From assembly GCF_965363235.1 (NCBI RefSeq), contig NC_134844.1:19078646-19142645 (forward strand): a DNA stretch of 64,000 bases, read 5' to 3'. The stretch's first letter is position 1; each line of letters opens with the position of its first letter. Source of the DNA: Mytilus galloprovincialis (lineage: Eukaryota > Mollusca > Bivalvia > Mytilida > Mytilidae). The translations under genes and the position numbers were made by a program. Under the pieces are notes generated by a model. The model saw only the letters and a program-made list of their open reading frames with translations, ran no database searches and was not told the origin of the DNA. Of this stretch, positions 15,401-26,296 are shown one piece after another.

Positions 15401-18400
15401 TACAATTATTTCTTGATAAAGTTTTTTTTTCAAAAAGTTAACCACGCAATCTACACATTTACAATCTATTTGAAATATTACAATCTACAGTTGCAAACTT
15501 TCCACAGGTTCTATCCAGCACTTTGATTAAGTCATTGAATATACATGCATTTCTATATTTTGACAATTGTCATACTTTTCAGTGGTAACTTTGATCAAAG
15601 GAAAGGTGGAAGAGGTGCAATTACCTGATGGTATTGAAAAAGTAGACATCATCATCAGTGAATGGATGGGCTATTGTCTCTTCTATGAATCTATGTTAAA
15701 CACAGTTATCTTTGCCAGGGACAAATGGCTGGTAAGAATTCATTTATAGACACACTCATCTTTACTGAGATATTTCATTGTGGATAGGGCCTAAAGTAAA
15801 ATATTGTTTGTTTCCCCAATCCCGACAGACCCCACAAAAATGGTGCTACTCATAAAATTTTATTGTCAAAACCAAGTCAAGTATTATTTTATTCATTTTG
15901 GATTTTCAGGATTACCAGATCGTCCGATAATGTTCAAGCTTTTTGGAAAAATAAAATCATTTCCCTACCTACCTAGCCACACCTGGCTTGGCAGGGTCGG
16001 GATTGGGGTAACAAACAATATATTAATTTAGGCCAAGTAATACTCTGTACAATAACAATTGATGTTCCCTAAAGAAACTTAAAATACTTTGATGTTTACC
16101 AATCTGATATCTGAATAATTATTTCTTCTCAAAAGCACCTTACTGTTGTATTAATATCAGCTATGGCCGTCAACGAGAAGTATAACAACAATCAGATTGT
16201 GGGTGAGGTCAGTATCTAAAACATGATGCTTATCTCAATACAGTCTAGAGACAGCAATGAAATATGTAAAACTTTTCATAGAGAATATAACCCTACTTCA
16301 AAAACAATAATTGAATATTTTCAATAAAAAAATCATAATATGGTCACAATCCCAAATGAGCATTAAATAAAATCCATGATATAGTCACAAGCCCAAAGTG
16401 CATTAATTATATAATCATGTTGACAATTTACTGAAACAAAATAATTAAGTTCACTTGAACAAAGTAGAACTGAGCAAATTTTATGAAGTTGCCATGCTGT
16501 AAACAGTTGAAGTGATATATTAAAATTGTTCAAATGTCAAATATAGCCAAGTTAAAAGGAACAGCATGTTCTATATAAATACCTGCAATTTCATACATGC
16601 ATTTTACATTATTACGATGGGGGAATGAAGAAAACCAAAGTTTTAATTTGAGAAAATGCACTTAAGGGGGCTCGCGGGTCTAAATGAAATTTTTTATTTA
16701 ATATAGGATTTCTCTATATTTTTCTATAAATGAACTTTATCTTATACTTAATAGAAAAATGAAATAAAAAAATGGGGTCACCGTTCATTTACGCTCACAA
16801 TCTGCCTTCGAAAGGAGCATACATTTTTGTTAATGTCCTTTTTTTCTGTTGAACTAATAGGAGAAATAGCGGCAATATCGAAATAAAAAAAAAACTTAAT
16901 TACAGAAATCGCTAAAATTTTACAATTATTTAGTCTATGTACAGCTTATTAGAAAACAACAATAAAAAATATAGGTCACCGATGAGTTAAAAAAGATATT
17001 TCAATTTTTATGCCAAAAATGGCATTTTTGCACCAAAGGGAGATAATTTGAAGCTTTTTCAATGATATCTACATTTTAAAAGTCCGCTGGGGCCAACACG
17101 AATTGATGTTTTGGAATGATTTTTGTACCATATGATAAAGTAACAGCTACTTAAGGTAATCAATAAAATTTGTAATGAAAAATTAATGTTTAATTTTTTC
17201 TGAAAATCTTATACCCGCGAGCCTCCTTAATACACATACACTTAAGAAATGTTTTAAATTTACTTGTCCTAAACAGTTTCATAAATGTACTCTTTGAACT
17301 ATTCTGTTCTTGTGATTATGGCAATACTTGAAACAATTACATAAGCTCATATCATAAGATTCCTACATAGTTTGAAATATATTTGACCTTCTCATCCTTG
17401 ATTATGTGGTTTGGAAATTTAGATTTACCAAGAACAAATCCGATATCTACATTATCTTTCCATGATGCAACAAGTAATGGTTTTATATAACTACTAAGTG
17501 GCCATATAAGTTTGTTTCTTTACTGATACTGTTACTTGTTGTTACTGGAAGCTGCTTTTAGTAGAATTGTTTGTTTACCTCACGTTGAATGTCGGAGAGA
17601 GAAAAAAATCTTCTCAAAAGCACCGTACTGTTTTAATTATATCAGCTATGGCCGTCAACGAGAAGTAAAATAACAATCAGATTGTGGGTGAGGTCAGTAT
17701 CTAGAACAAGAATAAAGTACAAGTGTGTGTCTTTTTACCTTTAAAACATGCAAGCAAGTCACCCATAAAAAACAAACCACTCATAGAAGTAATTTAACAT
17801 TCTTTATGGTTACATTGTATACTGCACATGTTAGTTCAGAAAAAGTGTGTCAGACACAATATCAAAAAGCATCACCAATATTTTGAATTGTTATATAGCA
17901 CTTATTTAAAACTCCTTTTCCTGAAATTGCATTTGAAAGCCTCTTGTTTTTGTCCAGTAATAAAAAAATACATTAATAAAAAAAAGCAATATATACCTGA
18001 TCTACACACCTATACATCACAAATGTACTAACAATTTACAAGTGCTTTCCCTGAAAACCTTGCAAACTATAATGTAAGTGCTTTCAGTAAAATCTGCATC
18101 CACTACCTTCATGACCTTGTGACCTTAAATTATTTTGTTAGGCACCTGGTGGATTGATCTTCCCGGACAGAGCCACTATGTACGTAACTGCAATAGAAGA
18201 CAGACAATATAAGGATACTAAAATTAACTGTAAGTCGTCTATAACACTCCTCTTTCTTTCTGTTTCCGTAGAATCCAGGTGGTATGATTTTCCCAGACAG
18301 AGCTACATTGTATGTATGTGCCATTGAAGATAGGCAATACAAAGATGAGAAAATCAATTGTAAGTGTTGCTATGGGTACATAGAACTTGCTTGATAGGTT

Positions 18401-26296: not shown

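Follow-up and report, generated by a model that had tools for sequence, protein, structure and literature searches.

Within the 64,000-nt stretch of Mytilus galloprovincialis DNA analysed here (the window), the host of the features described below is the PRMT1 gene, read from the plus strand. This assignment follows from the joined exon translations, which match PDB chains named PRMT1 (best E 2.7e-149), together with the splice sites: each marked exon is preceded by AG and, with the exception of the last, followed by GT. Delimited by translation and splice sites, coding exon 5 (ending DKWL) occupies 15583-15731, exon 7 23197-23312, exon 8 23849-23999, exon 9 25385-25509, and the last coding exon, which ends in YKMR and a stop, 26213-26296, all on the plus strand. 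Exon and intron numbers are those of an earlier note on this DNA and serve as labels. Exon 6 is duplicated: two 88-nt versions (18142-18229 and 18272-18359), 42 nt apart and 76% identical as DNA, both have an open frame and are each flanked by AG and GT. A transcript that included the two together would be out of frame (88 = 3x29+1), so they look mutually exclusive. Overlapping direct repeats, 75-78% alike over 225-467 nt, are found in the intron before exon 5 (14560-15138).

A repeat search and BLAST of the window recovered twelve copies of a single unit, nine full and three partial, over positions 16123-25880 and without exception on the plus strand like PRMT1, which bears out the tally of the earlier note for the sense strand of introns 5-9. 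The note had also placed at least one copy in every intron, and one full copy or more is indeed present in every one of the five introns spanning 15732-26212: one full and one partial in intron 5, four and one in intron 6, one full in intron 7, two full in intron 8, and one and one in intron 9. The first base of the CTTCTC arm falls at 16125, 19126, 19911, 20863, 22085, 23355, 24189, 24828 and 25748. A covariance model built from the nine full copies recovers each of them with an E-value of at most 1.6e-25, as its construction guarantees, and detects no further convincing copy in the 64-kb window; after the partial copy c2 (101.8 bits), the next match scores 20 bits and overlaps the partial copy q.

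Full copies were sorted into types I and II, and bit scores below are those of this model. Intron 5 contains c1 (type I, 16123-16256; 157.0 bits, fold z -3.05) and the partial c2 (17608-17711; fold z +0.83), made up of the 5' hairpin, the hinge and the left half of the 3' hairpin; with its 3' half missing, c2 is probably a pseudogene. The full copies of intron 6 are all type I: c3 (19124-19257; 157.8 bits, z -3.22), c4 (19909-20042; 157.5 bits), c5 (20861-20994; 165.1 bits, z -4.89) and c6 (22083-22216; 161.3 bits, z -4.35). They are accompanied by the partial copy p (19769 to about 19800), which was recovered by the repeat search and BLAST and comprises no more than the unit's initial ~23-32 nt. 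The single copy of intron 7, c7 (type II, 23353-23487; 131.3 bits), starts 40 nt downstream of the 5' splice site; its 5' pocket has CGCU as right guide and three additional nucleotides, and its 3' pocket is intact. Intron 8 holds c8 (24187-24318; 154.5 bits), a chimera of a type I 5' part and a type II 3' part, and c9 (type I, 24826-24959; 153.2 bits, z -1.74), in which the hinge forms a small hairpin in the minimum free energy (MFE) structure. Intron 9 holds the partial q (25690-25718; BLAST and repeat search), consisting of 29 nt of the 3' hairpin with a type I-like downstream flank, and c10 (type II, 25746-25880; 131.9 bits), with CGCC as right guide of the 5' pocket and again three additional nucleotides. 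All of these lie on the plus strand. The same introns contain a minisatellite of about eight 41-43-nt units (21431-21800, intron 6, between c5 and c6) and two short MITE-like elements with 38-39-nt terminal inverted repeats, one just 5' of c1 (15788-16034, 92% complementary) and one upstream of c5 (20467-20753, 84%).

Read 5' to 3', the unit opens with a closing stem CUUCUC/GAGAAG, which is associated with a left guide AAAAGC and a right guide CGUC, and continues with box H. A second closing stem, GAUUGU/ACAGUC, goes with a left guide GGGUG and a right guide CAAU and is followed by 4-5 nt, ACA and three bases. The second stem is invariant in all nine full copies (0/12 columns vary) and replaces the ATTG/CAAT stem proposed in the earlier note, in which CAAT is in fact the right guide strand. 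The first stem had been ascribed to each full copy; it is exact on both arms in seven of the nine, the exceptions being c7 (CTTCTT) and c4 (AGGAAG). Likewise, an ANANNA hinge directly after this stem is only partly confirmed: the motif, a loose one given the A-rich hinge, occurs in 9/9 copies, one base past the stem in six and three to four bases past it in c7, c9 and c10.

The position of box ACA requires a larger revision. The note had described a ~121-nt unit ending three bases past the ACA of 'ACAGTC'. We consider that triplet unlikely to be the box because it sits in the 3' arm of the invariant closing stem and 4 nt from the pocket, not 14-16. A better candidate begins 10-11 nt further 3', which brings the unit to 130-133 nt (~132). 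This ACA is present in the tail of all nine full copies, with a predicted 3' end placed by us and by the Rfam match. Lying 4-5 nt after the GAUUGU/ACAGUC stem, it corresponds in the alignment to the SNORA21 model's own ACA, which sits 3 nt before the model end. H/ACA RNAs as a rule keep ~14-16 nt between pocket and box. By hand count, the distance from the 3' pocket to ACA is 14-15 nt in 9/9 copies, and that from the 5' pocket to box H is 14 nt in six of the nine, 17 in c9 and ~19 in c7 and c10, the last three being outside the rule.

Folding is consistent with this layout. A 5' and a 3' hairpin appear in the MFE structure of every full copy, that of c10 with an internally branched 5' hairpin, and the MFE stem stops one base short of ACA in all but c9. 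Across the nine-copy alignment, 97.5% of cells are paired in the proposed structure, a share that falls to 30-51% if the structure is shifted by one to three columns. Among the full copies, fold z-scores relative to shuffled sequences range from -1.74 to -5.29, and the truncated c2 folds no better than its shuffles. Covariation among the copies is weak, with two of 31 pairs changed on both sides, a result equalled in 112 of 500 shuffles.

At the gathering score, Rfam gives no match in the window. Without the gathering cut-off, positions 15000-27000 return 22 matches with E up to 10, and all 15 of those with E <=0.1 belong to ceN82 (eight) or SNORA21 (seven), on seven full copies and c2. ceN82 matches eight of the ten near-complete copies at 30.3-42.7 bits (best E 1.5e-4, highest score on c4), and SNORA21 the same eight at 18.3-31.7 bits (highest on c6). 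The seven weaker matches comprise SNORA21 on c2, TtnuHACA9 on c10, SNORA75 on c8 and c10, and three non-H/ACA matches. For c10 these weak H/ACA matches (E 1.4 and 9.5) are the only ones, and on c7 no H/ACA family matches even at E up to 10, the sole match there being the non-H/ACA Afu_182 (E 6.2). A covariance-model search had been suggested in the note, and its outcome is favourable, as Rfam H/ACA models match 7/9 full copies and the partial copy at 17610. These matches are independent of the repeat itself, and a chance origin of the array was rejected on their account. Taken with the fold energies, the ANANNA hinge, the N-ACA-NNN tail, the pocket-to-box spacing of most copies and the SNORA21-like guide pockets, they support the central claim of the note, namely that the array consists of intronic box H/ACA snoRNA copies.

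The pockets allow a closer identification. In the c6 alignments, AAAAGC, GUC(AA), GGGUG and CAAU are identical to both the ceN82 and the SNORA21 consensus, and four of the six pairs of the 5' closing stem differ in letters from SNORA21 yet stay paired. Because the pockets carry the SNORA21 guide strands, we read the unit as a SNORA21 orthologue, a reading drawn from sequence. The best score of 31.7 bits remains below the 80-bit gathering score of RF00412, and we therefore call the unit SNORA21-type on the basis of its pockets rather than a curated Rfam member. That nine full copies yield no gathering match illustrates that these thresholds can miss an invertebrate-type orthologue wholly.

The pockets also predict targets. 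At GAUUG-U-U-CACCC, within bases 1-130 of contig L020, the 3' pocket (GGGUG/CAAU) forms 9/9 core and 11/11 extended pairs, and the runner-up among the 35 uridines scanned there forms 4/9 core pairs. L020 comes from another organism, and its start is eukaryotic LSU rRNA by Rfam (126.8 bits, match 1-361). This contig, filed as viral (IMG/VR), departs by eye from LSU after about base 128, at a break resembling a chimera or insertion boundary. The 5' pocket (AAAAGC/CGUC) pairs at 10/10 positions with GACG-U-C-GCUUUU in a presumed 28S stretch, which we take to contain the site. On that stretch the two sites lie 69 nt apart, equal to the difference between chicken positions 3955 and 3886. The upstream site had no match in the viral contigs searched; L020 and a second contig, L021, both start just before the 3' site, so that neither includes it. 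In the mussel's own assembly, two presumed conserved 28S stretches gave no match with up to three mismatches. A 5.8S search gave two matches that pass the cut-off with low scores (67 and 53 bits), and both 3.1-kb loci contain none of nine LSU test words. We conclude that rDNA is absent from or unreachable in this assembly. With no 28S of the species itself recovered, the 5' target is a prediction from the presumed 28S stretch and chicken coordinates.

Over the nine copies, none of the 15 columns in three guide strands varies, against seven of 12 in the 5' loop, and the CGUC strand varies at two of its four, in c7 and c10. These two copies form 8/10 and 9/10 Watson-Crick pairs, respectively, with the presumed 5' site, c7 being without two and c10 without one of the four pairs of the right strand. 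According to the available part of PMC2653536, chicken ACA21 (GGgACA45, RPL23 intron 3) targets 28S-3886 by its 5' and 28S-3955 by its 3' pocket; 28S-3955 is a target common to yeast snR10 and plant snoR74, and GGgACA36 (RPSA) is a second snoRNA listed for 28S-3886. A human table in the available part of PMC6466398 gives RPL23 as the SNORA21 host, with sites 28S-4401 and 18S-1499. The 18S site disagrees with a second 28S site and thus counts against reading the targets as a 28S pair.

Comparison of the copies bears on how the array arose. Unit identity averages 85% over the 36 pairs of full copies, and the adjoining 50 nt average 53% upstream and 55% downstream, compared with 49% for random windows. 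Some pairs share longer flanks beyond the unit (19907-20126 with 22081-22305 at 82%; 17519-17711 with 19812-20012 at 79%), from which we infer that DNA segments were duplicated inside PRMT1. As far as these comparisons reach, the RNA-sized part has been preserved since duplication. Copy c8 is to all appearances a recombinant or conversion product: its 5' part differs from type I copies at 4-9 of 90 positions, and its 3' part at one of 42 from c7 and c10 and at 13-16 of 42 from type I.

Preservation need not mean that every copy works. The array may be mostly a graveyard, with one or a few working copies and the rest pseudogenes kept alike by gene conversion, an arrangement that would leave the identity of the RNA unchanged. 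The three partial copies point in this direction, as do the chimeric c8, the altered 5' pockets of c7 and c10, and c9, whose fold is the weakest of the full copies (12/200 shuffles as good). So does c2: although its 3' half is gone, 94 nt of its 5' part match c8 at 97.9% identity. Conversely, none of the nine full copies has lost either closing stem (the first is imperfect in c4) or the 3' pocket, and in each an ACA stands 3 nt before the assigned end. Moreover, identity ends near the RNA ends, with flanks near chance, and conversion tracts alone would not place these limits so exactly. We regard widespread decay as possible, while leaning against it.

The note had stated that the unit, if found widely outside PRMT1 as an ordinary mobile repeat, could not be upheld as such an array. 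Searches of the 1.38-Gb genome do not refute it. A DNA search returned 10 matches among the best candidates, all in the PRMT1 array. A whole-RNA pattern gave nine matches, eight in the array and one (L011) on C5, and a variant of it gave eight matches, all inside the array; c7 and c10 are beyond the reach of both. Searching with a 3'-hairpin pattern produced 17 matches, namely the nine full copies and eight elsewhere (L022-L025, L035-L038), and its reversed control produced nine. Neither the C5 match nor these eight is matched by our own model up to E 10, and given also the nine control matches, the non-array pattern matches look like chance. A SNORA21 family search of the same genome returned no match, the array included; it is evidently insensitive, and its negative says nothing. 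The DNA and pattern searches across 1.38 Gb thus yield no model-supported copy outside PRMT1, in a survey which diverged copies could escape.

A SINE-like element or snoRNA retroposon that landed repeatedly in PRMT1 would explain the many separate copies with mostly unrelated flanks, the partial copies, and the runs of seven A directly upstream of c2 and q. Nevertheless, such copies would be expected beyond one gene, and both the DNA matches and the two kinds of pattern place every supported copy in PRMT1. All copies also share one strand, no long A-run is seen by eye directly downstream of the full copies, and the pair at 19907-20126 and 22081-22305 shares flanks beyond the unit as DNA duplication yields. 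We give mobile origin almost no credence, and it was rejected since these searches of the 1.38-Gb genome found no dispersed copies.

The array is real, sharply bounded, SNORA21-type and in an unexpected host. We hold it very probable that it represents a SNORA21-type box H/ACA snoRNA, intron-encoded in and multiplied within PRMT1, the only locus found in the genome. In animals, intronic H/ACA RNAs assemble while still within the pre-mRNA, and trimming of the spliced intron then releases them. By analogy, the PRMT1 introns would be spliced out, and the units bound by dyskerin, NHP2, NOP10 and GAR1 and trimmed to ~132-nt RNAs, their 5' termini predicted close to UUCUUCUC and their 3' termini three bases past ACA. 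Their 5' pocket would guide modification of the uridine in GACG-U-C-GCUUUU of 28S, and the 3' pocket that of the uridine in GAUUG-U-U-CACCC, 69 nt further on. On this reading the copies themselves stem from DNA duplication within PRMT1 coupled with exchange of sequence among them, of which c8 is an instance. The four full copies of intron 6 are spaced 785-1222 nt; as trimming from the ends frees at most its outermost units, endonucleolytic cuts are predicted. Introns with two or four full copies would either be cut in this way or release their outermost copies alone.

Multiple copies would lift output, and the nine present here plausibly compensate for a host whose transcription is weaker than that of a ribosomal-protein gene. 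A fuller proposal is that SNORA21, once lodged in a non-ribosomal host, was amplified to nine working units over five introns as a dosage device, that c7 and c10 are specialised, keeping the 3' pocket while a changed 5' pocket reads a new target or none, and that introns with two to four copies need endonucleolytic release. Taken as a whole, we think this rather unlikely and offer it tentatively. The copies might also act in cis, as structured intronic elements that adjust how PRMT1 is spliced or how much of it is made, whether in addition to guiding rRNA modification or in place of it. That five introns in a row all contain one full copy or more, and that one of these introns follows the duplicated, apparently mutually exclusive exon, would fit such a role. 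A cis structure would not, however, require that three of the four rRNA guide strands be invariant. This invariance is not decisive, because the 3' closing stem is equally invariant; even so, we judge a cis role very improbable. The functional link between PRMT1 and GAR1 raised in the earlier note is speculative.

What is new here is which gene hosts the RNA, how many copies it carries and that they appear exclusive to it; the RNA type and the mode of multiplication are known. The titles and abstract starts listed from part of the open-licence literature revealed neither an earlier description of PRMT1-intron snoRNAs nor one of a comparable molluscan array. The locus is a clear case open to testing, in which every copy of a conserved rRNA guide that was found in the genome lies in a single methyltransferase gene. 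It could serve to study the influence of host, copy number and intron position on snoRNA output, and the way in which snoRNA paralogues specialise.

Several known systems may be set beside the array. ceN82 (RF01654), from Caenorhabditis, is the best Rfam match and shares the guide strands; the array's 42.7 bits are under its 80-bit gathering score, and the model's ACA is two bases off the assigned box. SNORA21/ACA21 (RF00412) is likewise a two-hairpin H/ACA RNA with the same guide strands, but its vertebrate host is RPL23 rather than PRMT1, and its stems and loops differ. Drosophila multi-isoform H/ACA snoRNAs, reportedly described by Huang and co-workers in 2005, are said to occur as several near-identical copies in the introns of one gene, an arrangement like that in PRMT1. 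Vertebrate intragenic (cis) duplicates similarly place paralogues in several introns of one host. The available part of PMC2653536 describes such paralogues, often with guides and structure kept, and reports that six chicken H/ACA snoRNAs were duplicated to give 13. The earlier remark that a multi-copy family in one gene is unusual therefore holds for the host and the copy number, and not for intragenic duplication as such. For chicken ACA21, that part of the source lists one copy, against nine full copies here, and the PRMT1 array exceeds the vertebrate cis-duplicated paralogues in copies of one H/ACA family.
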